From Telopea speciosissima (taxonomy: Eukaryota > Streptophyta > Magnoliopsida > Proteales > Proteaceae): 64,000 nt of DNA. Positions 3,001 through 44,600 of this stretch are shown here, one piece after another (within the stretch, counting starts at the first letter, position 1; the number at the start of each line of letters is the position of its first letter). The stretch lies in contig NC_057918.1 in the NCBI RefSeq assembly GCF_018873765.1, positions 13,462,862 to 13,526,861 of the forward strand, given 5' to 3'. Below the pieces are notes generated by a model. That model was not told where the DNA came from and did not search any database. It saw only the letters and a list, made by a program, of their open reading frames with translations. The translations under genes and the position numbers were made by a program.

Positions 3001-6000
3001 TTGAGGACCTAAACAAGAAAAGGAGAGCACTGCTACTTGAATGTGAACTAAATACTAAGATCATAGGCTTTATTACAACTTCTATATAAAATAGAAGTGA
3101 AATTACCTGCCCCAACAACTGTGTGGATCTCATCAATGAAAAGAACTATCTGCCCTTCAGATTCAGTCACTTCCTTGAGTACAGCTTTCAATCTATCCTC
3201 AAATTCTCCCCGGAATTTTGCCCCAGCAATGAGCGCACCCATGTCAAGGGAAATCAACTGCAATAAGCAAGCATAGAGGTCATTGATCAGATTGAACCAG
3301 CAGAATTTGAGGTATTAAGAACTAAATACTCCCCAGATTAATTAATGCACACCTTACGATTCATCAAAGCTTGAGGCACATCACCTTGCACTATCCGCTG
3401 GGCAAGCCTGTTAAACATATTACCAGATATAAACACCTTCATTAAATAAAGGTTTCACCACTGTGTGGAATAAATAAGCCTACCGAGCTTTCTCAGTTCT
3501 CAAGCTTGGCACAACTGAGCCTTAGCCATACAGCGTAGCTCCCATGCAGAAACTGAGCAATTAAACCCACATCTAGACTCGGAAAAGAAACACGCCAGAG
3601 CTAACTCTGTTTTTCATTTTCAGGCCAGGGGTCTATGCTTGGTCCAAGCCCATTTCATTTGAAAATGGACAGAATACAAATTACACGGTTCTTGGGTTTG
3701 GATCAACCCAAATCACCAGCAGGCTGGGAGCAAAAAAAATGAGCTTGGAAATTTCTCAGCAAGCTTCTTATAAACCAAGTGCTGGATCATAAGCCAAAAC
3801 AGAGCTGAATCATATGTGTGGGGCCTCACTTGTGTATAAACCAAACACCATAAGCACTTACCCTTCAGCAATTGCAGTTTTTCCAACACCTGGCTCACCA
3901 ATTAGTACCGGATTGTTCTTTGTTCTCCTTGACAGGATCTGTATGCATCTTCGTATCTCATCATCCCTTCCTATAACTGGATCAAGCTTTCCCTCCTTCG
4001 CCATAGACGTCAAATCTATTCCATATTTTTCTAAGGTTTCATATTTCCCCTCCGGATCTGTACCAGCCCCCTCATCAGACATCTAACCCAACAAACTCTA
4101 CGTGCCATGGTAATGTATAAGTTTTCAAATGCATGCAATAATAAATACAACATAAAGTTACCATAGAAAGGTACAAGTAGGAAGCCAAGTATAACTGTAT
4201 GTGTTAAGCATAACACGCTCAATCATCCTATCCAATACGGAAATAACTACCATAACACAAAAATTCTTACACATCAACATCTACACTACTACAAACAAAT
4301 CTAGCATCATGATGGGAGAACAAAAGTTCTCTCATGAATTATGTGTGCATCATTGTTGCTCTTGTGGAACACATTCAAATGGGTCACATCAGTGAGCTCC
4401 TACTTGATAGTTCCACCAAGAAGATCCCCTAGGCCAGAAGTCATTTAACTGGATAAATCCAACCAAAGTGAACATGGAGGATGCAGGTAAGTAGAATGAT
4501 TTTCCAACCATCTTATGAAAGTATTCCCCTACAATGGCACTATGGAAGTAATCTCATTCTGAGCAGCATAACTCTATGGGAGATTTCAAAAACTCATTTA
4601 AAGAAACTCTAAGAGATGGGATCTGAAAGATTGAAGCCATTGTCACCTTGATCAATTACTGTTTGGCGTCCCCGTACGGACTGTATAGCAGAGGTTAAGG
4701 TCTCCTTAGAAATTTGAAAATCCTTGAATAATTGTTTCCCGAAGCGCTGATCTTGTGTAAAAGCAAGTACTAAATGCTCAACCGAAACAAAGGAATCCCC
4801 ATACTCTTTCTTGTAATCCTTGGCTCGCTGAATTAGAGCTTCAAAGCCACGTCCTAACATAGAACCAGCTGGTTCACCAAGAACCTAATAGTCGTGGGAC
4901 AATTATTCAAATAAGAACAATCCGGCATTTCCGGCTAACAATATGAAAAACTGAAAAAAGTATCAAAAGAAAGGGAACAATGATATTTGCAAAACATAAG
5001 ATTAGATTGAGGGGGGGGGGATCAAGCTTATCCTACGGATGCAAAGAACAGCCTTTATAATTGGTGTTACTGGACACAGCAAATCATAAATAAAGAACGT
5101 GACATAAAGGATGATGCTGTTTCACGGAGAATGTAGGGGTGCGTCCGGAGTGTTATGTGATCAGCATATTCCTTTTAAACTAAGGAAAATTTATAGGACA
5201 ACCATACGATCGGCTATGATGTATGGTGTGGGATGTTAGGCAGTTAAGAAGCATCATATAGATAAACTTAGTGTAGTAGAGATGAGGATGTTGAGATGGA
5301 TGAGTGGCAAAACTAGGAAGGATAAAGTAAGGAACAATCATATTACAGCTGATTTGGGAGTAGCTCCAATACATGGTAAACTATGAGAAAGTCGTTTGAG
5401 GTTGGCATGGCTATGTTCAATGGAGGCCTTTGGATGCCCCAATACGGAGGAGTGATTTGATTCAGATTGAAGGAACTAAAAGAGCTAGAGGCAGACCTAA
5501 AATGACCTTAGGAGAAGTGGTGAAGAAATACATGCATAGCTTAGGCCTTGTATAAAGTATGACCTCGAATAGAGCTGATTGGAGGGAAAGGATCCATGTA
5601 GCCGACCCCAGATAGTTGGGATAAGGCTGAGTTGTAGTTGTTACACCGAATACAGCAAAGAAATGTTGATGCAGAAAAGATTCCATGTCCTGCATTCTCA
5701 TTGAGTTATTTTATAACGTAATCGAACAAGATGGCCAAATATGGGATTGAAGAAAGCAACAATCAAGACAATCGCAAACACAAGCAGATTTACGTGGTTC
5801 GGTTTCGGGATAAACCAACGTCCATGGGAAGAGCAAAGGCAAACTTTTCACTAAGCAAAACGAAGATACAAGTTATTTCGTTTAACCCTAGAATGAGAGA
5901 AAAGTGCCTTATATATACGGCTACAAAAAAATTTCAGGTAAGGTTCATCCAGGGAAGAGAGGTTATAATGATACAAGTGACATCCAATATTCCAATTGAT

Positions 6001-9751: not shown

Positions 9752-11155
9752 CTAATGAACATACCCACTCCACAACCAATACCAACATGTATTTTGAGAT
9801 TATCCATATCCATAATAACCATAAAGGGATTTTGATGGAGTGAGATTGTTGGGGTGAAAAAGTTATCAAAATTTTTTTCCAAAAATGTGGTATTTTGGGT
9901 TATTCGATTGTCTAGGGTTGAAAATTAAGTAAACAATCACAGATTTGTCAGATTTTAATGTTAACTTACGAGACTGACGATTTCTTCCACTTCACCCCCT
10001 CATAAAATAGACGTTGTAGAAGACTTAACAGAATAATGAACATCACATGATTCTCATCTAATCTTTTCTCTTTCCTTCTTCCATGGCATTCCCTAGACAA
10101 ACTCCAACATGTCGAGAAGCCGCCTTAAAATCATTGAATTTAGGAACACAAAGTGATCAATGAAAGTAGAGACTCAAGAGGAGAAGAAAATTAGATAGAA
10201 AACCAGTGTCTGCTGGTTGCAACTTGCAAGAGAGACCATAAGTAAATTTAACAACAGCTGATCGAGCGAGGTTATTTGACCCTTGCCCTTAACATCAGTG
10301 CCCCCTTTCTTCCTCCCTATAAACTGAAATTTGGATCTTGATGTAATCCAAAAGGTGGTATTCAACATGGATGTCAACAAGGCCTTGAGCTTCAATGGCT
10401 TGATTTAACCTTATATTATTGTCTTTTATTTTATTTTTATTCTAAAAAATTATTTAAGTTGAGACTTGAGAGTAGAAAAGGATTTTTGAAATAATTTGAG
10501 AGTGAGTAATTGCTATCTGGCTATGTGGCTCCTACACAATGAGAGAACAAACCGGGCCATCCAACAGGTGTAGAATTTTTCATTTTACAGGCATCCAACA
10601 AGTGTAGAATTTTTTATTTAACGGGGATGGGGCGGTCATTTCGCTCTTCTTGTGTTTGTGCGTTGGCACTACACAGCTTGGCAGCCTTCTTTTTCCTTTA
10701 CTAACATAATTTGTCATTCTTATTAATTGTCATTGTCTTGTACACATGTGAAATATTAGACTTTTACCTTCATTGAAAGAAAATGTATAAATTATACTAA
10801 ACCGATGTATTTAGACCTTGGTATCTTTTTTTAGTTGCCCCTAATCTTATTCCCCAAAGTTCTTTTACATAAATGTATAAAAGGATTTTCAAAAATAATT
10901 TGAAAGTTACATATCAACAAGATAATGTTATTGTCATGCATATTTATGACACTTTTAGTAGGACATAAATTTTTTTCCAATTAGGATAATAATGTCAGTG
11001 ACTCATCCCACATGTATACTTGAAAACAATTATGCATGACAATAACACCTTACCTTTTGATACTACATAATGATAAGTCATTTTTCAATTATTTTTGAAA
11101 ACCTTTTTAAATTTTCAAGTCTTCAACGACTTTTTTTTTTTTTTTTTTTTTTTTT
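9752..11155. other. Intergenic, no gene seen
   Basis: AT-rich sequence with short diverged repeats (two ATCCAACARGTGTAGAATTTTT units near 10558 and 10597) and a T-run at 11131-11157. No coding frame with a recognisable domain was found. Confidence 0.5.
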
Positions 11156-12990
11156 TTGGGTAAATTACACATCATCCCTTGGTTTTCGAACGAAACTCAG
11201 ATCACCCCCTGGTTTTTGAAAAAACTCAATTACCCCCTCTACACTAACAATGTTAGTCTGCTGTTAGTTACTAGTATGAAAGGACTATTTTACCCTTGTA
11301 CTAAATCATTAGAATTAAATTTACAATACTACCCTTTCTTCATCTTCAACATTAGTCAAAGGTAGTTTAGGGATTTAAATTTATGGGTTTTTTTATAATT
11401 ATCACCCCAAAAACTTTGATATCTACTATTGCCCCCCTAAAAACTTTCAAACAACTATTATCCTCCCCTGTTGCATACTAATAACTAACTGGCCCCCACC
11501 ATTACATACCCGTAAGGGAGAGGGTTAGTCGTGAAAGTGTGTCATTGTCATGAATTTTTTAGGACCAAAATGCCCTTTTGGGGTGGTAATTATAAAAAAA
11601 AACCACACCCCATCACCGTCCCTTCTCCTCCTCCTCCTCCTCCTCCTTCTTATTCTCCTTCTTCTTCTTCCTCCTCTGCAACCCCAACCGCCCCAATCTC
11701 TCTCTAGCTCTCTTTCCAAGACCTCCTTCTCTATACCCAAAAAACGAAAGAGAGGTTTCTGCATTAATCCAGTGAGCAGCAACCGATTAGAGAAGAGATG
11801 ACTCCATGCCTGTTCTTACCTTGAACCTTCTCGTCCATTCACCGGAACAAAATTATAGCAATCCAAAACATAATCCAATCCACCGGAAATGCTTAAAAAG
11901 GTATCCAATACGAGGAACGGAGAAGCTCAAGAGAAAAAAAAATCACCAAACATACAATCGAAGAACAAAAGGTTTCCTCCTTTTTTTTAACCTCCCTTTC
12001 CAAACCAAAAATCACCTGACTACGGACACCACTGACGAGCCAGGAAATTTTTAAATGAAAAGAAAATGCAGAGAAATAAATTAGGGAAACGCAATTCAAG
12101 GAGAAGTAAAGAGTAAAGAATTGATCATACCTTAAAGCTAAAAGAGACAAGGAAAGTAACAGAGTGGATCTGGAGAGCAAAAGAAGTGGAATTTCAGGCT
12201 TGCATTGGAAGAAAAGCTCTCGGATACTCAACCATCAATGGAGCTGAGCAATTAAGGTATTTGTTTTCTTTCTATATTTTCCCTCGCTTTTCACTTTTCC
12301 TATTTAGTTCTCTCTTCAGTAGTCGTCTTCTTCAGTTGCACAGAGAGCAAGAAAGAGAAAATGAAGGGCAAGTGAGAAGATGGAAGCAGGGGAGAAGAGA
12401 GTGTAGGAGTGAACGAGGTGGAGATGGTGGGCGTTGGGTGGGTTAAAAACTATATGCGTTAGGTGTCACTTTAAAAGGTAAAGACGCTGGGAAAAGCAGA
12501 AGCCTCTCTTTCGTTTTTTGGGTATAGAGAAGGTGGTCTTGGAAAGAGAGCTAGAGAGAGATTGGGGCGGTTGGGGTTGCAGAGGAAGAAGAAGAAGGAG
12601 AAGAAGAAGGAGAAGGGATGGTGATGGGGTGGGGTTTTTTTTTTATAATTACCAACCCAAAAGGGTATTTTGGTCTTAAAAAATTTGTGACAATGGCACA
12701 CTCTCACGATTAACCCTCTCCATTACGGGTATGTAACGGTGGGGGCCAGTTAATTATTAGTATGCAACAGGGGAGGGTAATAATTATTTGAAAGTTTTTA
12801 GGGGATAATAGTAGATATCAAAGTTTTGGGATGATACTTATAAAAAATCCTAAATTTATTTGACTGTCTGACATCATCACTTAACAACATAAAACTAAAT
12901 AGAGACTAATTTGTCATGTTAGGATCTACACCAGGGGACGATATGAGTTTCGTTTAAAAACCAGAGGGTGATGTGTAATTTATCTTTTTT
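11156..12990. mobile_element. 1.8-kb long-terminal-inverted-repeat element (MULE/foldback-like)
   Basis: The first about 610 bp (11156-11765) and last about 510 bp (12485-12990) are inverted copies of each other. The outer ends read GGTAAATTACACATCA on the plus strand and the same on the minus strand near 12985. Inner landmarks recur in inverted order: CTTTGATATCTACTATT, GTTGCATACTAATAA, TTACATACCCGTAA, a CTCCTT/CTTCTT tract and CTATACCCAAAAAACGAAAG. The left arm has roughly 90 bp extra near 11220-11390. The core (11770-12480) has no recognised protein. No transposase was seen, so it would be non-autonomous. T-rich flanks hide any target-site duplication. Confidence 0.75.
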
Positions 12991-13958: not shown

Positions 13959-14860
13959 GAAGGAATGCATGGTTGCAGAGTAAAAGGAGCGCAAATAAAT
14001 AGAGGAAAAGAAATCTTTTCTTTATAGTCTTTCTGTGCAAAACTTCCGCCCGGAGAAGTCACTGCAGATTCAAGGTTTGAGTGAGCTCTACGGACGCCAT
14101 TACTGATGAATTACGGTCTATTGCCTCTGGTTTCAGTTGGGTTACTCATCTGAAATGTTTATTAGGCTTTTATTTTAGTGTCTTTGACTTTGGTTTGTTC
14201 TGGACTCCTAGTTTCATAGATCTGTAAAAGACCAAAAATGGAAACCAGAGCTTTTTTTGTTTTTATGGAACAAAGAATTTAGAGACAATCTATCGTCTCG
14301 ACTCGATTATTTAGAGTTCAATCTTGAAACCGGAGTTGTCATTCTTAGAATGGACTCAGTTTGCTTTTCTCCTCTGGTCTCACTTACTAGATCTGTTACC
14401 AGGTGGAGAAACGTGTCCAAGTTTTCTCTAAACCTCAAATTTTAGGACCCATTTCTTTGGTTAAAATGGGTTTCTTGTGTGTGTGCGTGCAGGAGATTCA
14501 TTGGAGTTATTATTGACATATGTAAATTATCTGTCTTTCATTGTTGCTATACTTAGATCCACTGCAAGAGCTGGAAAAAAAAAACTCTCTCTCTGTTTTC
14601 TTTTTTGGTTCAAACATGATTTCGATAACCTTTGTTTGTGGCTGAAAGCAACCTCGTTCTTTTACTCGATTTATGTGAATTTTTTGTTTTCAACAATGGC
14701 CATATTCTTTCAGAATTTAATTTTGTTCTTATCTAAATTCATAACATGTGATAGAAGGCAAACTTCATTTTTTTTTCATATATATAACTTTGAAAGATGT
14801 TTGATTTCCTTCTTTGGGCAGTTTAAATTGATGGAGTAGCATTGGTGCTGAAACCATTGT

Positions 14861-17800
14861 ATGCATCTCAGAATGGGTTTCCTTCTCTTTTTTCTCATGC
14901 TGTCCTCTGTCCATGGGGTTTTAGCTCAAGACCTTGCAGATACAACAATCGTAGTTAAGGGGACCACAAGAATTGCCGAGACCTACCACAATTTCATCTG
15001 TGCTACTGTGGATTGGTGGCCTCCAGAGAAGTGTAACTATCAACAATGCCCATGGGGCGAATCCTCTGTCCTGAATCTGGTGAGAATTAATCATGTTTTT
15101 ATTTTTTCAAAGATTCATGTGTTCTTACTTAATCAAAGCCAGCCATTTTAATTTTTGGGACTGAACAGAAATGAAACACTTGTTTTAATGCTCTTAGGAC
15201 TTGTCTCATCCTTTGCTTACCAAGGCTATCCAAGGTTTGTGATCTTGACCATTTGAGTTTGAGTCATCTAAAAGAATGGTCTTCACAACATACTAATACT
15301 CTGAGCACTTATCTTCTGATTCTGGCTCGTGGTGTATAGCTTTCAACCCACTCAGAATAAGAATTGGAGGAACTTTGCAAGACAAAGTTGTGTATGATGT
15401 TGGAAATTTGAATTCTTCATGCCTTCCATTTAAAAAGATGGCAGGTGTACTTTTTGGATTTTCCAAGGGCTGTTTACCTATGGCTAGGTGGGATGAGCTC
15501 AACCTCTTATTTAGTAAGACAGGGTAAGTTTTATTTTTTAATATTTGAAATTTAAGTTCTTCTATAAGCAACTCTATCCTTTTGTATGTAAGCTGCATGC
15601 TAACTCTAATGTTTATACACATTTGGAAATCTCAATTGTTTATGATGACTGTATGAAGTAATTATCTGTTTTATTAAATTAGCTTTTTGATTGGAAATGA
15701 TAATGCCATTTTATTGCTCCACACCCAACAGAAATTTTAAAAATATATTTGAATGTTTCGGATTGAGTTTTGATTGCTATAAAGTGTTCCAGTCTGTCTT
15801 CTCTCCAAATCAGGAACTTCCCCCATTTGCAAGTTCAGTGGCAGTAGTAGGCCTTACAAGAAGAAGCGTTGATCCATAGCTAAGGCTGCTGATCCAGTGA
15901 CAAATCCAATGGGTTGGAACCTTTTGATTTGATGAAATAGCTAGAGTTTTTGTAGTTATAAGTAAAACAAGATAAAAAATTAGAGGCTTTGCAGTGCGGA
16001 AAATTCCAATGGTGAAGTTTCCAAATAGGGTTGTAGGCTGTCTAACCCAAGGCCTACTCGGTCATTTCCTTTCCAGGAATCCCCGTTTATTGTTTCATGC
16101 AATCTTTCCCCACCCTCTCTGTTTTGGGTGTATTTTGCTTCTGCAAAATGATGTGTATTTTGATCTGAACAATGATGGTTTTATTTTTATATTTTGTAGT
16201 AAAAATCAGCATTAATTAATCAAATATATACGTTTACCAAAAATAAAAAATAATCAGATATGTAATCAGTATTCTTGGCCTTTCAGAGCTCTTCAAGATT
16301 TTTTTTTTTGTTTGAAAATTATTTGATATTAAAAAAGTTACTGAAAATTTCCCAAGATTTCATCTTTTTATTTTAAAGGAAATGGGGATAATCCTAAACT
16401 TCTGTGCAGCTAGAACCAACGGTCACTTGAACTAGTGGTTTAATTGGTTTGCTTTTGGAATCTTTGGTTGCAGAGCATTTGTGACATTTGGTCTCAATGC
16501 ACTATATGGGAGACACCAATCCGGAAATGGCGCTTGGGTAGGTGCTTGGGACCCTAGTAATGCTCGTGATTTTATCAAGTACACCATTTCCAAGAAATAC
16601 CCAATCGATTCATGGGAATTCGGTAATGCATTTTTTTTTATAAATAAACACTTTTCCATTTTCCTAATATCATGTTTCTCTTAACCCTAGCACATTCTTT
16701 TCCTCATTCAGGAAATGAGTTGAGTGGAAATGGGGTTGGTGCAAGTGTTGGTGCTCAACAATATGGGGAAGACTTAATCAACCTTGAGGCTCTCGTCAAT
16801 GAGTTGTATGGGAAGTCCCATCGAAAACCATTGATTGTAGCACCAGGAGGGTTCTATAATCAACAGTGGTATACCAAGTTTCTTCAAGTTTCGGGGTCGG
16901 CTGTGGTCAATGTTGTAACTCATCATATATACAATCTGGGTGCAGGTGGGTGAGGTAATATAAGTTTATTCTTATATTTATGTACAATCAATATAATAGC
17001 ATGAATGTTTTTATTTAAATAGCGTGGAAAAACAATTACAAATAAATATAAAAGATCTGCATTTAGGAAGAGCTCCTTTGTGTAGTCACAGATTTCATTA
17101 TCATGCAGAAGTGTTAATCATTTGCTAAAGTTTATCTTTACTTTTGATGGAATCGTTTTTCTAGAGATTTTGTATGCAGGATTTCACATAGGCAATGGTC
17201 TTCCCTTGGTCTTGATGCTGATGCGAATTACATTCTTTTTAGCTAAATAATTAATCTATACCCATACTACTTAAAGTAATACCAACTTGACTATGTTTTG
17301 ATTCACTTTTCCTTCTGTTAAATTATAAATTATGTCTGAGGTAATCACTATAGTATGAATAGGCAAAAGGTTTTTGCATGGCTACCAAGGAAGGACTTCC
17401 TATGTGGTTCTCTTAATTTATGCCACATGGAAGGATGATTGGCAACTCCAATCATTGGATAGATAAGGCATGCCTGGATTGCTTGTGTGTCAAATTTCAG
17501 ACCTAAATTCAATTCAGTATCCCTCCATGTATTGAACTTTCTCCTGCATTCTTAATCGTTTTTTCAAAATATTATTTTTCTAGTGGATATTTAATTCTTT
17601 ATTTTGTCACATGACCTCTGTTTGGGCTGAAACTTGACATGTGAGTCCAAGAACCTGGGTCTGAATATCATCTAGTTTTGTACTTTTTTAGTTTATAATC
17701 TATTAGGGTTTATTGTAACATATCCAAATTGATTTCTAATCTTGTAGAGTTAGGACTTATAAAACAACTGAAGATGTAACCCTGAAACTGCCTATTACAA

Positions 17801-20800
17801 ACCAGCATTTGATCGTCAATCCAATTGAATTATAGTAATTTGGTAAGGTTCTAATCTGATCAAATCAAGATCCAATCTGAAAAAGAGTCAGCCGAATAAT
17901 AATCAAGTCAAACCTGCCAATGCTCTGATCCGATCCAAATAAATTAGCATATAAATATGTAATATATATTTACCATTACATACATAATATTTTAAGTAGT
18001 TATGTTCTGAAAATTTTAAGATTATATAAGTTTATTTTCTAATTGGACTGAAAATACATTTTAATGTTTCCTTTCGTTCTCATCGTATATTGTATCCTAT
18101 AAAAATATGTTAAAATCATAACCATATATTAGATTCGGATTTTGATCAGCGTTTATTCCAATCAGATCTGACCATTGACAGCCCTAAGTTGTGGTTGGAG
18201 TTTGAGGGCAACTGGTTTGCTAATTTCATTGTATAATAGTGCTGAAATAAGATCCCGTAGTAAGTTACTGAAATTCTACCTTAATAATAATACTCCACCA
18301 AATCTCTGTCTAAAATAATATAGTTGTCAACTTTTTGTTCGTTGTGTTATTGTTTTATGGGAAAAACTGTCGCATGGTCTAGGACCTTAGGTGACTATGC
18401 ATGGGCACTGGATAAATTTTAACCTTTTGCATTAAATTTTAAGGAGGGAAAGAGATTTCGACCTCATTTGTCTCTCTCCCCCCCCCCCCCCCCCACCCCC
18501 AAATACCCAATTTTGATTCTAGCTCTCCGTCCTGGTTAACTCTGGATTCTTCCTCCTCTCTGCTACTCTGGATTCTTCCTTTTCGCTGCAATTCGGGCAG
18601 AGTTTCGTCTTGCACCTCGATGGCTACCAATATTTTCATCATGGTAACAATCTCATGATACCAGCTATCACCGGAAACTCTGGCAATTCTTGTACAATAT
18701 TTTTCAAAGTGGGTTCAGCCAGCTGCTGATTGTTCAGTGGGATTTTCAATGTGGGGTTCCACTGGCCATAGTTTTTTCATAATTTGAAATTCAAGTTTTA
18801 TAGTTTTTATAGCTTAAGGTTTAAATTTATGGTTTTGGGTTTAAGGTGTCACATTCTCTGACCTTTTAATGGAGTTTCATGGCATCTTGATGAAGCTTTC
18901 TGGCATTCTCATGGTGCTTTCTAGTGGTGTATGTACTTGGTCTGACCCATCAATGGTGATGGATTTCTGGTTTATTGATTGTGTCTTATTAACTGGTTTA
19001 AGCCTTGTATCAACTGTTTTTATTGTTCATTTGGTTCACAGCATAGACTTGCCTAAATGGATGGCAGTTGAGAACCCAAGGAAAGATCAATCATGTCAAT
19101 ATTTTAAAATGTGTAGTTTCTCTGTTATATAGTTTCCTCCATTACTTACTGTAGCTCGTATGTGATCACTCTCTTTTCAGGTAATGATCCCAAACTTGTT
19201 AATAAGATACTGGATCCCCATTATTTAAGTCAAACATCACAAACTTTTGGCAATCTTGAAAATACCATTAGAAAGCATGGTCCATGGGCTTCTGCCTGGG
19301 TTGGTGAAGCTGGTGGGGCCTACAACAGTGGTGGGCGTCTAGTGTCTGACACATTTATAAACAGCTTTTGGTAAGCTTGATTCTCTCATTTATTTTTGTT
19401 TTTTTTTTCTTGTTTGGTCAGTTTCTAATTTTTTCTTTTCAGAAGAAAATAAATTTTCTTTTAATTGTAGTTAACAGATTTACTCATGGAATTCAGGTAC
19501 TTAGATCAGCTTGGAAAGTCAGCAATGCACAATACCAAGGCATACTGTAGACAGACTTTGATTGGTGGGAACTATGGTCTCCTCAACACCACCACTTTTG
19601 TGCCAAACCCTGATTACTATAGGCAAGCACATTCACATTAGATTATTGCAGACGTATATCCTTGCTGAGACCCCAAAATCTAAAATTCTGCATATGTTTT
19701 TTCCCCCTATGTTTTGCATGACCTGTGAATAGTGCACTTCTATGGCATCGGCTTATGGGAAAAGGCGTCCTTGCTGTTGATGGTGAAACATCGCCATTTT
19801 TGCGTGTTTATGCCCACTGTTTGAAAGGAAGAGTAAGGCTCATAATTTGATCATTTTTCATTTTCCAAGATTGTTCAAAAATGGGAGAAAAGTCAACAAG
19901 AAACCTGAGTCACTTGGGGCTCGTTTGGTTAGAATGGGAGTGAAGAGAAGTAAAATTTGGATAAAATAAAATAAAAAGTTATGCAATCATTACTTAGAAA
20001 AATTGTGCAACTCAACAACATACCAAATATGGTAACAATTACTTCATTTTCATTCAACTGATCATTGAAAATTTAAGTGACGTCGTAAAATTTAGCTTCA
20101 TATTTAGGATGTTGATGAGGTAGTTATACAAATTATTCTTAATAATGATTGCAAAGATTTCATTTTTTTGGTTCTAATTTTACTTCACTACAAACAAAAC
20201 AGGGCCTTAGGCAACCACAGTTTGTTACATCCCAATTTGAGACCCTCTATGTAGGTGAACCATATATGAACACTTTTTTTTCAGTGCAACATATTTGAAT
20301 AGTTATCATCACACCTATTAGTACATAAAAGTTTGTGCTATAGAACATTGTAATGTTTACACTGATTAAAAAGTTCAATATATGAGTGTCATGAAGTGCT
20401 CGCAAACTTAGGTTTTCCATTGACCAGTTGGCAGCCCATGTCACATGGAATTCCATGAAGGGATCACAAACTTTAGGTTTTCTGCTGATCCTATAGTTTG
20501 CAACCCCAAGTCTATACGGAGTACCATGAAGGGATCACAAACTTTAGGTTTTCTGCTGATCCCATAGTTTGCAACCCCAAGTCTATACGGAGTACCATGA
20601 AGGGATCACAATGTTTATTATTCTGAGAATAAACATTGCTTACCTATCTTAGAAGTTTGTAACTATGTCATTTTTCTTGTTACAGGAAGGCATAATTCTC
20701 CTTGTGATCAATCTTAGCAACAATACCGAGTTTAGAATCACTGTTCAAAATAGTATGAACATCAACCTGAATGTAAGAGAGAAGACTATTCACTGGAACA

Positions 20801-21078
20801 ATTCATTCATGCATGGTCTTAAGAGAACGGTTTCGTGGGTTGGAAGAAAAGCATCAGATGAGGAAGAATTGAGAGAGGAGTATCATTTGACTCCAAAGGA
20901 TGGATATCTCCAGAGTCAGACTATGGTTTTAAATGGGACTCCATTGGAGCTTACCGAGGAAGGAGATATCCCAAATCTGGAACCTGTTCTTGTTAATGTG
21001 AAGTCTCCTATATCCTTGGATCCTTTATCCATTGCCTTCGTAGCCTTCCCCAACTTTGAGGCTCGAGCTTGTAGGTGA
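14861..21078 (+). CDS. GH79 heparanase-like / beta-glucuronidase, copy A
   Basis: Secreted family-79 glycoside hydrolase of the plant GUS/heparanase-like group, which removes glucuronic acid from cell-wall arabinogalactan-type glycans. Nine exons: 14861-15079, 15198-15234, 15340-15523, 16474-16622, 16712-16945, 19181-19370, 19497-19622, 19733-19832 and 20686-21078. They join in frame to 543 residues, typical for the family. An N-terminal hydrophobic signal peptide (about 1-23) is followed by FICATVDWWPPEKCNY. The acid/base is Glu199 in FGNELSG and the nucleophile is Glu317 in WVGEAGG, as known for GH79. The C-terminal domain ends FEARACR. Intron 7 starts with GC (TATAG then GCAAGC), a minor donor class. 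Start: first in-frame ATG before the signal sequence; MGFLL four codons later is also possible. It is tail-to-tail with copy B. Confidence 0.93.
17860..18190. repeat. Degenerate AT-rich dispersed repeat in GH79 intron 5
   Basis: It contains CTGATCCGATCCAAAT and ATTCGGATTTTGATCAGCG followed by GACAGCCCTAAG. This word type recurs near 25560-26115 and 63340-63620. The rest of the 2.2-kb intron 5 (16946-19180) shows no gene; a C-run lies at 18479-18494. Confidence 0.35.
20392..20612 (+). repeat. 71-bp tandem repeat in GH79 copy A intron 8
   Basis: Units starting ATGAAGGGATCACAAACTTT at 20455, 20526 and 20597 (partial) repeat with a 71-bp period. A diverged unit precedes them from about 20392. 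A short palindrome (ATGTTTATT...AATAAACAT, 20612-20637) follows. All is intronic, before the acceptor at 20685. Confidence 0.85.
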
Positions 21079-21582
21079 TGGAATTCAGCTACCACTTGCA
21101 GGTTCACAAGCAATTCTGCATCTCCATTTCAGCACACCCTCAGGTAAGGGAACTGGGCCAATATAGGCCTACTGTAATTAATATCAAATCCCCCTCCACT
21201 CCACCCCCCCCACCCAATAAATAAATTAATAAAAAGAAACAATAGAGACTGCAGATTCATGGTAATTGTATTAAGATGAATTATCTATACCCAGTAATTT
21301 CAGAAGGTAGTTCTGAGGAAGAAAATAATGTATCATATGATGATTCTTTCTTTTCCTTTATGCCATCTAATATTTTGATCTAACCATTAAGTACTACTTT
21401 TTCTTGTTTCTTATTTTTGAAAGTAATTTATATTCAAAAAAGGAGGTAAGTGAAAGAAATTTTAACATGTATTCATTAGCATTGACAGTTTATGGCTACT
21501 TCAGAGAAGAGTATTTCAACTTGTACATTAAAAAAAAAAGGAAATCTAAATGGCATAATTGGATGAGGGCACACCACATTGC
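21079..21582. other. Convergent 3' region between the two GH79 genes
   Basis: 504 bp between two stop codons facing each other. AATAAA-type polyadenylation signals lie near 21216-21235 for the plus gene. It must hold both 3' UTRs, so the transcripts probably come close to or overlap each other. No other gene is seen. Confidence 0.6.
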
Positions 21583-24500
21583 TCAACTCTGAACACACGC
21601 AGGAGCCTTGAAGTCCGGCAGAGTAGCGAAGACAATTGAATCAGCAACAATCTTGATAGGAGATGAAGCATCAACCTTAATAGGATTTAGTGGGGGAATA
21701 TCTAAGGATTCACTGAGCACCAAGGGAGACCCATTCAGTAGTAACACATCACTCTGGATATTACCATCTTTGGGGGTCAAATGGTATTCTTCTCTGTAAG
21801 AGTTTTCGACATTCTTGCTTTCAGAGTCAAGATTCAAGTTTATGTCATCAGCCACCGAGACAGTGAAGGTGGTGGAATTGGACATATTTATTAGAAGTAC
21901 AGCAATTCCCTGCAACAGTCACAAAAATAAACTCAGCTTTGATTTTAGACTTAATTTTAGTGGCAATATCAGTTAGCAATAAGAATTGTTTCCATTCTAA
22001 ACTTTCACTTTTAGAATTTTACATGAATCCATATTAAAAAAAGGACCAAGTTTTCCTTCGCCATGGTGATTGGATTCTCATTCACCGCGGGCTTCTGAAT
22101 GGGCGTGAGAGGATATGGGGCTATTTTGGGAACATAATAAAATTTTAAAGGAGTTTGTGAACCATAGGATGGTGGTTGAACCTTTACTTTGCGGTGAAGG
22201 AAAACTGTCCTCAAAAATTAGGAAAAGGTTGTCTAAGTACATTAGCATCTCTCTCTTTCTTTCTAACATGTTTGTCATTTTTTATTTTGTAAAATCATTT
22301 AAAAATATTACATAAAATTATGAGCTAATTAAAATTATGCAGACTGGTATTATATGATTGTGAAAGACATATTGGGAGAGGGATACGCACACCGTTGGTG
22401 CGCGGGAAACTAGCAGGCGACATTGATGGGGTGCAGGATGAGGTATTTTTGGAAGAGAGGAAGGGGAGTCATTTCAAAGGGGAAAAGAGAGATACAATGG
22501 GCACCAATTTACGGTACAACGGCAGTGTGTTTCCCTTGAAGATTTTACAAGGGAAGATTATACAGTTAAATTACGTTTTATGGTAAAATTTTAAAAAATT
22601 TAAAAGCAAATAGAAAAAAATATATTTTACGCCAAAACAAACAAACAAACGGATTATCAAAAAAAAAAAATTGGGATAAAAAATGAATAGTGAAGATGTC
22701 TTCATCTTCCGGGGTCTCGCAATTCGGGCCTGAGAGCTCGACACATGGAAGATGCTTCAATCCAACGGTGCGAGCTAGATTGACCCAGTTTTTTTTTTTT
22801 TTCTTTCTTCTTGAGCTAGGTACCGTTGGATATCGCATCTTCCACGTGTTGAGCTCTTAGGCCCGAACTGCAAGATTAAGACACTGTAGAGGATTTTTTC
22901 CGAGAAACAAAAGGGAAAACAAACAACATGAAGATGATTTACCTTTGTTCTTGAACAATGGGAGTATGCACGCAAGTATGGAGAGCCACTGTGAGTTGTT
23001 GAGAGAACCTTTGGTCCCATTAATCGGTGCCAAAGAAGAGCACTGTTAGGAAAAAATTATCAGAAGAAAAGGGGTTAATTACAAGGCATTTCCTTAATAA
23101 CCTATCTCTGATGATTAATTATATAAACCACATACCCATAATAGTCTGGATTGGGGATGAATGTTGTGGTATTAAGGAGACCATAGTTCCCACCGATCAA
23201 AGTCTGTCTGCAGAAAGTCTTGTGGTTGTAGGTCGATGTCATACCAAGCTGATCTAAATACCTGTTACAGAACAATTGCCATTAATTCTTTGATTCTTGA
23301 GAAGAAGAAGAAGAAGGAGAAGAAAACCAATCCTCACCAGAAGCCATCAACAAAGGTATGGGACACATATTTGCCCCCACTATTGAATGCTCCACCTGAC
23401 TCCCCAAGCCAAATAGATGCCCATGGACCAAAGCTCTGGACGGTATTCTTAATGTCTTTGTACATCTGAGCTACCCTATTAAGAAAATATGGGTCTTGGA
23501 TTTTGTAGATCAGATCTAAATCTTTACCTGTTACAACCCAATTGTGTGAGTATTTTATAAAGATGATATGACCATAAGAAAGAAAATTCTAAATGTAGGA
23601 AAGCTACCTGGACCAAGATTGTAGATATGGTGAGAAACCACATCAACCACATTAGGACCTGAAACTTGAAGAAAGGTTTTGAACCATGTTTCATTATAGA
23701 AGCCTCCTGGTCCCAATATCCTTGGTTTATTAGTTTTATTATTGTATAATTCATTGATAAGATTTCTGAGAGTGATCATGTCTCTTCCATATTGATCAGC
23801 ATCTACCCTTGCAGATACTCCATCTGCGGAAAGCTCGTTTCCTGTGAGGTAAGAAATGGAAGTTTTAGAAGGTATAGATAAAGAGTAGAGTAGTTTGGAC
23901 TTTGGACATTCTCTATCTGCAAATTTTTAAGTAAGAAAAAATGATCAACAAATTAATTACCTAACTCCCATGAATCAACATTGTATCCCTTAAAGATGGT
24001 ATACTGTATCAAATCGCGAGCATTCTGTGGGTTCCAGTTGTCTCCATAGAGACCATCATCACTTAGCTTTCTTCTCCCAAATAGTGCATTCAACCCAAAA
24101 GTTACTATGGCTCTGTGTCAATGAAGAATCATGTTGTTTTATGGTTTTCTCAAGTTGCATTCTGCAAAAAAAAACAGAAGAAGATTTGGAATGTTTACCC
24201 TGTTTGTGTGAAAAGATTATTGATCTGATCCCATCTCTCCATTGTGAGGCAACCTTGGGAGAATCCAAACAATCCATTTGTGTCGTTCGTGATTTGGGGG
24301 CAATTTTTAATGTTGTTTCCCACCTTGTACAAGATCTGATCTTGCATTGATCCTCCAATTCGGATCCTCAAAGGATTGAAAGCTGAAAATTTCAATGTCA
24401 ATCACCTCTAATCAAAGCTTATCAAAAAGGGTAACTACTATACCAATATCTTCTGTAAAATCAAACTTTTTTTTCAAGTTAAAACTATGAACACAGTTAA

Positions 24501-24981
24501 GATTTTACTCTGTTTTACAGTAAACAGAGAAGCCCTGTTTGGGTTGGGATGCATTTCATACCTTTGATAGCGTTTTTGAGAATTTGGTTATTTAAATCCT
24601 GCAAAGATGAAAAAACCCATGTAAGTATTATGAACAATGAACCAGAATATTATCATAAAAAAGAAAGAAAGAGCAAATACATACCAAATTTAAAATACCA
24701 GCCATTCCCCATGGACATTGTCCATAGTTGCACTTAAAGGATGGCCACCAATCCAAAGTTGCACAGATGAAGTTGTTTTCAGTTTCTGCAATCGAAGAAA
24801 CACCTTTCACTGTCACTGTAACATGTTCTTCACCATGGCCATGTCTTTTTGGTAATTTTCCATGGTTATGTTGTTGTTGTTGATGATGGTGAGGTATGTG
24901 AGCTAAGCAGGTTAACATTAATAATTGAGAAAAGAGAAGGGAGAAGATAAAAAGCCTTCTGAAACTCATCCCCATCACCAT
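21583..24981 (-). CDS. GH79 heparanase-like / beta-glucuronidase, copy B
   Basis: Inverted paralogue of the plus-strand GH79 gene. Nine exons: 24685-24981, 24562-24598, 24199-24382, 23961-24112, 23608-23841, 23338-23527, 23136-23261, 22943-23042 and 21583-21909. They join in frame to 548 residues. Exons 2, 3, 5, 6, 7 and 8 match copy A exactly in length (37, 184, 234, 190, 126, 100). A signal peptide is followed by a His/Gln-rich stretch with nine His in 27 residues, absent from copy A. Catalytic Glu226 (LGNELS) and Glu344 (WLGESGG) are intact. The last exon is 66 nt shorter than in copy A, removing a loop before REEYHLTPKDG. The start is the first ATG (24981); the open frame upstream begins only with TTG, and ATGs at 24975 and 24969 are alternatives. 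Probably an extracellular glycosidase. Confidence 0.93.
22035..22219. mobile_element. Hairpin MITE, family B copy 1 (GH79 copy B intron 8)
   Basis: The left end AAAAAGGACCAAGTTTTCCTTC is inverted at the right end (GAAGGAAAACTGTCCTCAAAAA, 22195-22217). A related hairpin with the same GGACCAAG terminus lies at 49310-49444. Confidence 0.55.
22700..22888. mobile_element. Palindromic MITE-like element (GH79 copy B intron 8)
   Basis: The arms 22705-22760 and 22830-22886 are inverted copies carrying TTCGGGCCTGAGAGCTC, ACATGGAAGATGC and CCAACGGT. A T-rich loop of about 60 bp separates them. The structure could fold into a long hairpin in the pre-mRNA. It ends about 55 bp before the exon 8 donor. Confidence 0.7.
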
Positions 24982-25065
24982 TAGAGAAACAAACAAGTAC
25001 TTCTGAAAGTAGAAGAAGAAGAAAAAAAAAAAAGGATTAGGAATGAAAAAGAATGGTGAAAAGCT

Positions 25066-25079
25066 AGATTTATATAGAG
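25066..25079 (-). promoter_or_regulatory. Probable TATA box of GH79 copy B
   Basis: On the minus strand CTATATAAAT (TATATAAA at 25069-25076) lies about 90 nt upstream of the ATG at 24981. That spacing suits a short leader. A GA/A-rich leader (25010-25033) follows. Confidence 0.6.
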
Positions 25080-25558
25080 CAGATCAAAGTGGTTTTCTAG
25101 ATAAAATTGGATAAGGAACAAGATAATCTTTTTGATTTGGTTTCAAATCCTAAAACTGGTATTTTTCTCTTTCTATTTATATCTATTAATCTTCCAGCTA
25201 GAGGAGCTTAAGATAGTAAGACTTTCTATGTCGATGAGAGTCACGAGACAGAGAGAAGACTGGAGAGGAAAGCTCTCTTTTTATGGTCAGCTCACAGCTG
25301 GACCAGTTTTTCCAGTTTAATTGGTCAAATAAATTTCTAATAAATCCATTCCAATTCCAATTAGATTTAAATCTTGGTTATATTATATTCGGATACTGTG
25401 ATACAGCCCGACCCAACCCCGTGTTTCCTTTTCCTTTAATCATGGCTGTCCACAGACCACCAGTTTTTTCGGATCACTGGTTGTCTACTTGGCTGATCCA
25501 CCCGATCTTAGAATTAGTCTCAATTAGATTTTAAGAATCTCTAGTGGAAGTGGAACTC

Positions 25559-26115: not shown

Positions 26116-26891
26116 AAGTGGAATAGTTAAGATGAGATCCTTATGGATTACTCACTCTCTATCAAACTTGTATTATTGGAATTCCAATATTGGGAAGATG
26201 CTATTTGTTCGAGAGTGAGGCCCCTGCACCAGCATGGGGCCAATGGGAACGCGCAAAAGCATTGTCTAACCAGCATTTTCACTTTTCATTGGGGCAAGAT
26301 AATATTAATGATGAATATTAATTCATTTTCTTTTTCCATTTTGAAACGCTACTCTATATCATATAGTTGAAATAATACCTTATTAATTGATTGGATATAT
26401 CATTAGATAAGAGGCCAAGGTGGACTAATTGGTCAGTAAAGGAAGATCACATCTCTCATAGAAAATAATAATGTTATTAAATTGGCCTTCTTATAATAAT
26501 AATAATAATAATAATAAAACTACTACCACCACAGCACCACTAACAACAACAATAATAATGAGATTCGTTTAAAGGGATTTTTTTATTTAATAACCTTTAA
26601 GATGTAATCTTATTCTTTTACCTTTTCTGTATAATTTTTTTTTTCAATGAAAATAAATATTGTCATTTCACATGTATTCTATAATAATATGTAAAATGGT
26701 GACAACTTTTGATAATAAAATAATGATAAATCATTTTCAAATTATTTTTAAAATCCATTTATACGCTAAACTTAAAAGACTTTTGGGAATAAGATAAAAC
26801 GCAATTAAAAATGGTGTTAAGTTCTAAAAACACCATTTAATGTAATTGTATTATTCCTAAAAAGTTTTTTAAGTTAAGGGTAGAAAAATAA
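26116..26891. other. Intergenic, no gene seen
   Basis: AT-rich sequence with a simple ATA repeat near 26493-26516 and ACC/ACA microsatellite-like runs after it. No recognisable frame. Confidence 0.5.
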
Positions 26892-28748
26892 AGGGAAAAT
26901 TTCTTAGATCTACTAGATAAAAAAATTAATTTTAAGATAAGTGGGTTTTAAATTCATTTTACATTCATTAGTCTTAATTTTAAAAAGATTTACTTAATCC
27001 CCAGAGTTAGTTATTAGTCATGCCACCTAAGAAGAAAAAACTAGTGAACTTCCAAAATTACCCCAACTTCACCTTAGCTGCACTCTTCGGCTTCTATTCA
27101 CCCTTGACCTCTGCAATTCTCTCTCTCTCTCTCTCTCTCTCTGTGAACTCACCGACGTTCCCTCAAGTAATAGAGAAGAGATTCTCATTAGTTCTTCGTC
27201 ACCATTTTAACCCAGTAAAATGTGCAGGGTGTAAACGTAGAAACTAGAGGCGACATATTACTTTGATAAGCTATTAATTCTAGAATCTAAATACTAGTAT
27301 AAATTCCGACAATAAGAACACCAACCCTTCACTTGTACTAGATTGAACAATATCAAATGATCCCTTTTTATTTGTTGTTACTTCCCTTCTGGATCTTACC
27401 GTATCCACTGTTGCACCGCCCAACTTTAGAGATAACAGGAAAGGGTGTTCTAGATGTCTCTCTCTCTCTCTCATATTTTCTTCTTTATAATGAAAGAAGA
27501 AGGTTAGAGCTCTTTGACGGCAACTACTGCAGCGGCATCCATTACCACTATCATAGAAGATAGAACTTCTTATGGAGAAGGAGAGGGAGAGAGGAGGAGA
27601 AGATACAGAAGAGTGAGACAAAGGCCATGGGGCAAATAGGCAGCAGAAATAAGGGGCCCACAGAAAGTTGCAACTTGCAAGGGATTCTTTGTTTAGGCAC
27701 CTTCCATACAGCAGGAGCAACTGTCAGAGCTTACGATCTGCTCTTACATTCAGAGGAAAAGTTTAACTTCAAAAAAAACGTTAGATTGAGTCCTCCAACG
27801 CCCATTTCTCCAGCTTCAAGTTGACCATTTTGGATTCTCCAGCGACCCTTTTGCCTTCTCAAATGCATAAGCAATTTATGTAGTCTCAAGTGCTTTAGCA
27901 TCAGTTAGACTTCTGACTTAACGAGAGATTACAATGAATATTCACAGTTGCTTCAGAGCTCTCTAGATTTTACAGCCCACGAGTCTGTTAGAGCAGATGT
28001 TATATTCTTCACCTTGTTGCTGCTTCGCAATCTTCACTTTCTTCTCCATCTTCTACATCGTTTTCTCTACTTTTCGATGGTCATCAATAGATGGGTTATT
28101 TCATAAATCCATAACAAAGTCGTGATCATGATGGTCGTGATGATGGTGCTTCGACACTATCTGGACGGATTCCGGTCATTATCCCTCGTCCTCTTCAAGC
28201 TAGCTGATTTTTTTATCAGATTTTTTTTTTTTTTCTTGGATTTTTTATTTCATTTCATGTTTTTATTCTCTTGTATGGTTTAGATAGAATACACGTTGAG
28301 CAATAAGCAGGTTTGGGGTTTTAATTTCTTTTTCTTTTTTTTTCTTTTCAAATTTGTAAATTTGGACACAAAAATGATTTGGCCTGTGGTTTATATCTCC
28401 ATAACATGTACGCTTGACTGGCTTATGAAGGCTGAAGAACTAATGAGAAAGCTCTTCTCTATTATTCTTGACGGAACATCGGTGAGTTCGGTGAGAGATA
28501 CAGAGATGGCACAGCAGCGTGTGAGTTGCAGAGTTCAGGGGTGAACAGATGCCAAAGAGTGCGGCTAAGGTGAAATTGGGGTAATTTTGGAAGTTCACTA
28601 GGCTTTTCTTCTTAGGTGGCATGACCAATAACTAACTTTGCGTATTAAGTAAATCTTTTTAAAATTAAGACTAATGAATGTAAAATAATTTAAAACCCAC
28701 TTATCTTGTAATTAATTTTTTTAGCTAGTAGATCTAAGAAATTTCCCC
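26892..28748. mobile_element. 1.86-kb long-TIR element carrying an AP2/ERF fragment (Pack-MULE-like)
   Basis: The left arm 26892-27204 and right arm 28430-28748 are inverted copies (over 300 bp each). They share AATTTCTTAGATCTACTAG, CATTAGTCTTAATTTTAAAAA, CATGCCACCTAAGAAG, GTGAACTTCCAAAATTACCC and CATTAGTTCTTC. The arms differ by substitutions and by a CT microsatellite in the left arm (27117-27142). No transposase is present, and the core contains a decayed piece of an AP2/ERF gene (27592-27790). Long TIRs plus a captured exon is the hallmark of Pack-MULEs. A-rich flanks (GAAAAATAA against AAAAAAAAT) leave the target-site duplication ambiguous, so the superfamily is inferred. Confidence 0.65.
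27592..27790 (+). pseudogene. AP2/ERF DNA-binding domain fragment (decayed)
   Basis: The plus strand reads RRRRYRRVRQRPWGK, a stop where the family has Trp, then AAEIRGP. After a frameshift it continues LGTFHTAGATVRAYD, and ends with traces of the FRG, LNF and NVRL positions. This is the order of an ERF domain (YRGVRQRPWGKWAAEIR ... WLGTF ... AARAYD ... LNFP). One stop, at least one frameshift and a broken middle show it is non-functional. It lies alone between the arms of the long-TIR element, with no ERF gene around it, which suggests capture rather than local decay. Confidence 0.75.
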
Positions 28749-28879
28749 AAAAAAAATTTCAAAATATTTTGAAACTAATTTATGATTATGTCATTATCAA
28801 AATTTATTATTCATTTGTTTGCTTGACAAGCCCGGTAAAAAAAAACATGAATAAGATAGATTTTTTTGGGTGCTCCAAA

Positions 28880-41600: not shown

Positions 41601-44600
41601 AACAGAACTGCATTAGATTGATAATAAACAGACACGGGCGAGTGAGCAAATATAAAATTTCCACAGCTAACCGGACTAAACGATGCAAGAGAAGCACTGA
41701 GCATGCAAATAATTGTGAGAAATTTTTGAGCCCTAGGCATTAAGGGTCCGGAAATAGAGTGCACAGAATTGTCAGAAAAAGTGCACTGAATAAGTAATGA
41801 AATGTAAAAGGATGATTCCTACAGTTAACAATCTTGTTTTGAGTTTGATTAATGACTATAAGATGTAACTTAGAGAAATAAATAAGTCCTCATGTCTCGT
41901 GCCTCATGATTAGAGATCTATATGATACAAAGCTAGGTTTATTGAGTGTGAAACTGAATATCCATAAGCTGAGACAGCTAAAATCACAGCCTTGTCACTG
42001 ATTTACAAATTAATGCAGGATCTACAGGGTTGGGCTGTTGGGCTAGGGTTTATTATAAGGTGCACTAAATAAGTATTGCAATGTAAAAGGATGATTCCTA
42101 CAGTTAACAATCTTATTTTGAGTTTGATTAATGACTATAAGAAGTAACTTAGAGAAATAAATAAGGCCTCATGCCTCGTGCCTCATGATTAGAGATCTAT
42201 ATGACGCAAAGCTAGGTTTATTGAGTGTGAAACTGAATATCCATAAGCTGAGACAGCTAAAATCACAGCCTTGTCACTGATTTACAAATTAATGCAGGAT
42301 CTACAGGGTTGGGTTGCTGGGCTAGGGTTTATTATAGTGCACAAGGAGGATTAGATGTCTCTGTTGAAGAGAATGGGCGGCTGGGATAGGGTTTATTGGA
42401 GTGCACAAGGAGGATTAGATGTCCCTGTCGAAGAGACAAATTTAAGTTCAGAGAGTGGTCATAATGTACGTGGCCTTACCCCCACTTCGCAGAGAGGCTG
42501 TTTTCTGACTAGAACCCGTGATCACTTGGCCTTAATGGAGCAACTTTACCATTGTACCAAGGTCCACCCTCTAAAAGGGCAGGTTCGGTCCGTTCAGACA
42601 CCATAGTTAACAATTTTCATATGACAAAATTAGTAGAGGAATAGTTCACGTATAAAGGTATATATTAATCAATAATACAAGTTTTAATAAAACATGGGAT
42701 CCAAAAGTGTGGTATATTTTGTAAGCACAAACCTGTAAGATAAAAAGGGAAGTGTCTAAATTTTAAATCAAAGAATAATTCAAGCTATATGGGAGAATCC
42801 TAGTAGAGCTAGGAGAAGGGTATTTAGGTAATAAATCAGCAAACAATAATAGAAAAAAGGGTAATCGATTCATACTGAGATCTATTATGAACTAATGATT
42901 AAAACAGATTTGAAAATCAGTATATTGAAGAGAAAACAAACAATAACCGAAGTACGGGTTAAAACAGTAAATTTACCAAGTCAGAATTCAGAAATTAAGG
43001 TTTGTAGTGGCCAATCGATTCAACAGCATATGACATAAGCAGTAGCTTAAATCTCAAAATCGATTTAACAAGAAAGGTTAAAACAGTAGCTACAATGGAG
43101 GGTAGGGGCAGAATGGGAAAAACAGAAATATTTCAAAATCAGATGGTCAGAATTAGGTCAAATCATATTGAGTTCACCATTAGAGTTCCTGAACATATGG
43201 TCAAAATCTTGAAGGAATCTAATGACTGGATTGCTTAAGCTCAAAAAACATGTAACATGTAATTCTAGGTAGAAAAAGAATTTGCAGAAAAATTCAAGCT
43301 CTGAACTTACTTGTTAATGGTAGAAATTTAGAATATAGATTCAATAAACCAGTATAAGAATAGCAGCACAAGAACGTGAGCAATAGAACAATCCATCCGG
43401 GCTTCACAATGAAAGGTGCTCGATTGGATCAATCACCAATCTACCTTGATCACACACAAGGGTTCTCTTGATCAAACACAAAAGATTTCTTCACAGCATC
43501 AAGAGAAGAGCAGCAAAAGCTTTTCATTAATCAAATCCACATACAATGCTGGCCTCCCTTACAAACTTAAATAAAAAAAGTCAAAAACAGACTCAAACAC
43601 TAAAAAAGAAAGGCCAAACTCAATCCTTAACTAATAAGGTAACCTAAAAGGGAGAAAGAATGCTACTTGGGGGCGTGCGGTGCGCTGCCCCTGCGCCCAG
43701 ACACAGGGACACGCAAAATGACCACCACACCCCCTGGAAAGGCGGATTAAAGTTGCCCATTACAAAGAAAAACCCATTAGACTAAAGGCTCAGCACATAC
43801 ATAACCCAACCCAAAGATTATTTCAAATAAATTAACCCATTTAAGTTATTTATCTGCATCAATTACTTACATGCTAAATCATGTGGCTACCATGTATTGG
43901 ACTTTTCCTCTTATTCTAGTTCTCCTCCTAAGATGCCACTTGACAGATTCTGGACCATAACGTCTCAGCATGGCTACACAGCCACATAGGGATATCATAC
44001 CAGCAATTATAAATATTGCACCATGCTTTAAAAAATCCACATTGTTTGCTCATTGTAAATTTTTTTTTTTTTGGGGGGGAGGGTGGGGAAGTATATTTTT
44101 TACTTACTTTTTCAGTTGTGTGCCCATTATTTTTCCTTTTTTTTTGGGGGGGGGGTAAAAACACAAGAAAGTCTACACATAGTGTACGGATTTGCTCATT
44201 AAATATTTAGGGTTTGGTCATGTAAATATTTACTTTTGGGGGGTTTATTACAGAGAAGACAAGAAACAGAACAGAACAGAACAAGGAACAAAGAATGTGT
44301 GGTAGAAATAGAAGAGATGAAAGGTGGACTAATAAATAGAATCTCCTTGCTACTTCTTGGAGCAAAGAGAAAGCATCAGTATCCTAGTTCCACCACTTAT
44401 GCAGCAATACCAAAATATAAAGGGATGAGCCCCTACTCGAGTAAGGTTCGCGACAGAACAAGCAATCAAATCCTTCCGCACCCTAACTGATCTACGACCA
44501 AAGAAGCAACAGCTGAGCTGATCGTAGAGCACTCTCTCTCAGTCTCTTGCAAATGAGTCGTATAAGGTTTGCCTCCACCGCCCCTCTGCTTCTAAATGTT

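Follow-up and report, generated by a model that had tools for sequence, protein, structure and literature searches.

Pack-MULEs, nonautonomous Mutator-like elements (MULEs) that hold fragments of host genes between terminal inverted repeats (TIRs), are a well-known kind of element, and a close described counterpart of the family reported here is PM-ZIBP of tomato. As described (PMC3310237), PM-ZIBP is a nonautonomous MULE with 9–11 bp target duplications, TIRs of 100–500 bp and a captured gene fragment; there are 14 copies with structural variants among them, the TIRs are tandem in 13 of the 14, and the captured fragment is that of a zinc-ion binding protein. We analyzed a 64,000-nucleotide stretch of Telopea speciosissima DNA (the window; C3:13462862-13526861) and found an element that shares these general properties and exists in at least 10 copies, again including structural variants. 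The Telopea family differs from PM-ZIBP in its single TIRs, in arms whose inner ends are captured leader, and in its ERF cargo. The window element is very probably a nonautonomous Mutator-like element belonging to a multicopy Pack-MULE family with a dead ERF copy, and the family is a well-preserved, ordinary example of its kind. No title among those listed in a literature search describes this family, which does not imply absence from print.

The earlier note, made from the letters of the window, had claimed more than 300 bp of inverted terminal sequence around the element. This is borne out: when 26893-27197 is aligned locally to the reverse-complemented 28434-28748 (arms of 305 and 315 bp), 275 of 316 columns are identical (87%, or 90.5% once the 12 gap columns are removed), and the score is 424, whereas none of 200 dinucleotide shuffles scored above 40. 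The proposed extent of 26892..28748 proved right to one base, the first aligned base being 26893 and not 26892 (Table 1). The description of the whole arms as terminal inverted sequence stands for their outer ~181 bp, which are the TIR of the family and have a length within the 100–500 bp given for MULEs in the tomato report (PMC3310237); the inner part is not TIR but captured gene sequence.

Table 1. Features of the window element (positions in the window).
Feature	Position	Strand	Remark
Left target-site duplication, candidate	26884..26892	.	AAAAATAAA; 7/9 match to right side; within A run, uninformative alone
Left TIR, family part	26893..27073	+	181 bp, starts GGGAAAATTTCTTAGATCTACTAG
Captured upstream leader of ERF gene, left copy	27118..27259	+	matches L018 3346-3500
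Captured 3' part of ERF intron 1	27311..27490	+	BLAST match from 27329; 27311 by eye from alignment
Captured ERF exon 2	27491..28203	+	broken by stops and frameshifts; ends where the gene's stop falls
AP2/ERF DNA-binding domain remnant	27604..27788	+	stop at W codon 27637-27639
Captured sequence 3' of ERF stop codon	28204..28274	+	match to C1 locus
Captured upstream leader of ERF gene, right copy, inverted	28312..28504	-	matches L018 3358-3558
Right TIR, family part	28571..28748	-	arm alignment
Right target-site duplication, candidate	28749..28757	.	AAAAAAAAT

Each arm consists of the family TIR, a junction of ~70 bp and captured "leader," a term that we use for the region upstream of the start of an intact ERF gene on C1, without reference to a transcription start site. 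Between the left and right arms of the window element, identity is 94% in the TIR, 77% in the junction, 91% in the next 55 bp, which are leader, and 59% in the following 70 bp. The right inner arm matches the inverted leader (about 3358-3558 of L018, the 9-kb locus of the C1 gene) in all ten elements. Overall, the leader in the arms is 67–88% identical to the C1 gene; the inner leaders of all ten elements, which are not independent of each other, are 67–76% identical to the C1 gene and 57–64% identical left to right. These leader identities could come from capture on two occasions, from two different donors or from a single early duplication combined with slower evolution of the gene. For the arms, both one early inverted duplication with later homogenization of the outer part and two separate captures would fit.

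Outside the arms, a shorter and older inverted pair at 26704-26752 and 28757-28805 (49 bp, 84%) encloses the element, and a repeat at 10790-10916 of the window is 74% like its left flank. This outer repeat and the copy at 10790-10916 perhaps represent an older element into which the window element jumped. Aligned to the joined flanks, 10790-10916 scores 162, compared with 155 for the left flank alone, and we claim no empty site for the window copy. Among the surroundings, the window contains a tail-to-tail pair of GH79 (heparanase-like) genes at 14852-25083 (Pfam matches on three exons); the element lies ~1.9 kb upstream of the likely start of the minus-strand member (~24981, placed by eye). 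We also observed an inverted pair of ~390 bp at 11376-11765 and 12493-12858 (87%), possibly another long-TIR element, and a near-tandem direct repeat of 288 bp at 41778-42342 (95% identical). An Rfam scan of the window at gathering thresholds reported nothing, and ARAGORN found no tRNA in it.

The core of the element had been claimed to hold an ERF DNA-binding domain with a stop and a frameshift, and our reading agrees: YRRVRQRPWGK, a stop and AAEIR are followed, in another frame, by LGTF, RAYD and NVRL. Among solved structures, this piece, with X placed at the breaks, matches the ERF domains of 5wx9 (E 1.1e-8) and ATERF1 2gcc (E 3.7e-8). The Pfam AP2 model does not report the broken piece even at E 10, and the same model does report the intact C1 gene. 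The ERF copy is larger than the earlier reading and runs from inside an intron, through the domain, past the position of the gene's stop. The splice acceptor of the captured intron 1 is mutated in the window copy. On the 3' side of the domain, further stretches in changing frames match the C-terminal half of the intact ERF protein up to the stop position (28201-28203), which is TAG in the window element and TGA in the C1 gene. We recognized no transposase piece in the core by eye in the three forward frames, and what lies between the TIRs is a fragment of a host gene comprising ERF leader, intron and exon 2.

The earlier note had proposed a search for further copies with the same TIR, for 9–11 bp target duplications and for a donor ERF gene. 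A search of the 822.9-Mb assembly (1,287 contigs) with the element, in which 40 of the 980 candidates were scored, gave at least 120 matches, and we retrieved 20 genomic stretches for comparison; the counts given here are lower bounds. Further copies do exist: at least 10 loci, the window included, have both arms together with the ERF core or a form derived from it by deletion. Besides the window element, the long copies are L009–L014, which measure 1,821–1,962 bp, L013 and L014 being without part of the domain; the short copies L015–L017 measure 1,395–1,421 bp and are without element positions ~708–1225, where most of the DNA-binding domain lies. Core identity among the seven long elements is 90–96% in ungapped columns. 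In addition, a block of repeated and rearranged 0.5–1.5 kb units at C1:32477500-32522400 (L022–L026) holds at least four more copies of the ERF-bearing element, each of them old, incomplete, more diverged and on the minus strand.

The intact gene on C1 (C1:2554512-2555291) resembles the captured sequence in leader, the 3' part of intron 1 and exon 2, with a core identity of ~80% in ungapped columns, and differs from it in having an intact frame and exon 1 and, across its 9-kb locus, no TIR match. Its exons 1 and 2, which are predictions only, join in frame over a GT-AG intron (L018 4246-4531). The element matches L018 at about 3346-3500, upstream of the gene, and again at about 4348-5369, covering the 3' part of intron 1, exon 2 and sequence beyond the stop; in the alignment, the intron match seems to extend slightly further upstream than L018 4348. 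Nothing in the elements matches exon 1 of the C1 gene or the beginning of its intron 1, as might be expected if a spliced transcript (a retrocopy) rather than genomic DNA had been captured. All seven long copies, however, contain intron 1 sequence that reaches the acceptor and amounts to at least ~160 bp, and with no exon 1 sequence matched, no spliced junction is seen; capture of a transcript is virtually excluded. The intron sequence in the element argues for capture of genomic DNA and not of cDNA.

The capture that the earlier note had supposed is thus upheld by an intact related ERF gene free of TIRs and by at least 10 copies of the same family, and its donor search succeeded in part. In ungapped columns, the core is 80–81% identical to the C1 gene and 80–83% identical to two decayed pieces on C3. 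A protein search of the genome with the C1 exon 2 frame (147 of 260 candidates scored) gave as best matches, among those scored, the C1 gene itself, an intact C7 paralogue (74%), the two decayed C3 pieces and then an element, and no nonelement sequence among the scored candidates was closer than 83%. Because the elements are 90–96% identical to each other and only 80–81% identical to the C1 gene, the elements did not take their core directly from the C1 gene of today, and no immediate donor was found among the scored candidates. Judged from these identities, the C1 gene is a relative of the actual donor, which would be an ancestor or a lost paralogue.

The two decayed C3 pieces lie in duplicated segments at C3:24117000-24125900 (L019) and C3:29118000-29127000 (L020), which are 86–88% alike over several kilobases. 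Each segment holds an ERF exon 2 piece beside unrelated sequence and without the family TIRs, and both pieces begin inside intron 1, close to where the element core begins. Decayed ERF pieces that lack these TIRs within a duplicated segment, at C3:24.12 Mb and C3:29.12 Mb, are what one would point to if the window core were an ordinary decayed gene copy, a segmental duplicate with unrelated inverted repeats around it by chance. Against that, the same arms and core recur at 10 or more unrelated sites with target duplications at several, and the C3 copies fall outside the element clade, making a segmental duplicate highly improbable.

The target duplications were assessed in the flanks of 16 family elements, 10 with and 5 without ERF and 1 bearing a transposase, using 9 bp and a small range of end offsets; the range was set after seeing the best offsets and was the same for the cross-paired flanks. 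One element, L036, was left out, its right end being without a TIR terminus. Perfect 9/9 duplications were present in 5 of 16 true pairs and 1 of 240 cross-paired flanks, and duplications of at least 8/9 in 9 of 16 and 19 of 240, respectively. The weaker cases with an ERF core are L014 and L016 (7 of 9 each) and L011 (4, with a damaged left end), and those without ERF are L031 (6), L032 (4) and L033 (3). The expected 9–11 bp duplication is thus seen family-wide, at 9 bp and above the control, but the window copy taken alone shows 7/9 within an A run.

The 181-bp TIR recurs widely in the genome: a search with it gave 1,002 candidates, of which 40, including ERF-bearing elements, were scored, and a search with the TIR from an element lacking ERF gave 1,056, of which 40 were likewise scored. 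All six of the ERF-free family members retrieved are without a match to the ERF locus. Two short nonautonomous examples, L034 and L035, are like the window element in their TIR matches (173–183 bp, 78–84%) and duplications (9/9 and 8/9, respectively), differing in the missing ERF locus match. At C5:25824137-25841650, a pair of family TIRs, 92% alike over 182 bp and flanked on both sides by TTTTTTATA, encloses a MULE transposase (PF10551, E 1.1e-16) and a MuDR DNA-binding domain (PF03108, E 2e-13) in broken frames. This 17.5-kb element (L037/L038), itself broken, also holds a Copia-like nested insertion recognized by eye. As its TIR pair encloses these two domains, the TIR family is Mutator-like, and together with the 9-bp duplications in the family this substantiates the MULE membership supposed earlier. 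Membership in another superfamily, such as hAT, could be argued from a TIR pair at C5:43.03-43.04 Mb that by eye surrounds hAT- and Copia-like protein pieces, but the 9-bp duplications, the TIRs of ~180 bp and the MuDR/MULE domains within the other TIR pair oppose it and render it extremely improbable.

Candidates for an autonomous partner were also considered. The pair at C5:43.03-43.04 Mb was dropped, its translation showing by eye no MULE-like piece. In a search for MULE transposase domains near family TIRs (150 of 828 candidates scored), a comparison by eye revealed a domain at C7:789118-789402, in an open frame of 667 aa, 2.7 kb from copy L009.

The copies allow events within the Mutator-like family to be ordered. 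In a tree of the core, the ten elements and three copies from the C1 cluster form one clade (support 100/100), weakly placed beside the C3 pieces (43.7/66), which branch outside it. All seven copies keeping the site have a stop in place of the AP2-domain W codon (TAG in six, TAA in one), and an 8–9-bp deletion, a 5-bp deletion and a CAG-to-TAG stop are common to all seven copies keeping those sites; these shared defects place the death of the ERF piece earlier than the main spread. Where readable, the C1 cluster is without the W stop and the 8–9-bp deletion: L022 has TGG, and L022, L023 and L024 retain the deleted sequence. Leader and intron borders in the cluster copies coincide with those in the elements, so exon 1 was lost early, and since the cluster has these borders and not the first two defects, the order was capture and loss of exon 1, then disabling changes, then the main spread. 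Differences among the seven long elements are even over the three codon positions (0.063/0.067/0.053; 21 nonindependent pairs), whereas the intact C1 and C7 genes differ with a third-position excess (0.116/0.153/0.253). A functional AP2/ERF gene has an intact AP2 domain in frame; here the W codon is a stop, the frame is shifted and the copies evolve with no third-position excess, and the ERF piece presumably has no protein function.

An action through RNA, which the earlier note had suggested, was considered as well. If hairpin or small RNAs acting on intact ERF genes had retained the family, one would value the arms as long inverted repeats and the perfect matches to the C1 gene region that are 21 bases or longer, of which 8 of 10 elements have two or more after low-complexity matches are dropped (window element, 3; L009, 5; L010, 3; L011, 3; L012, 4; L013, 4; L014, 4; L015, 2; L016, 1; L017, 0). 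In maize, captured pieces can serve as siRNA reservoirs, according to a 2026 review (PMC13317346). Yet the overall identity to the C1 gene is ~80%, with 67–88% in the arm leader, matches of this length to the C7 gene number one in 4 of 10 elements and none in 6 of 10, and the core evolves without third-position excess; retention by such RNAs seems very unlikely. The leader in both arms might act as a source of dsRNA tuning intact ERF genes from at least 10 dispersed sites, which we hold to be very unlikely.

For the Pack-MULE family, we propose that an ancestral member of the TIR family copied a segment of ERF DNA made up of the leader, a portion of intron 1, exon 2 and the beginning of the sequence that follows, exon 1 having been either skipped at capture or deleted afterward. 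The cargo may have been acquired by switching of templates in the course of repair; models of gap filling and of fork switching are given in a paper that concerns animals (PMC8277862). The leader would have ended up in both arms, the ERF copy would have gained stop codons and deletions, and MuDR/MULE transposase from other elements would have relocated the copy with 9-bp target duplications. The element most probably relies on mobilization in trans alone, with a MURA-type transposase acting at its TIRs.

The family lets one capture be set in order, from the donor segment through leader in both arms and disabling changes to spread. It also carries a warning for the building of TIR libraries, since part of a long Pack-MULE arm can be captured gene sequence. 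That the ERF piece was already defective when the main amplification took place argues that the cargo was carried along as a passenger and did not spread for its protein.
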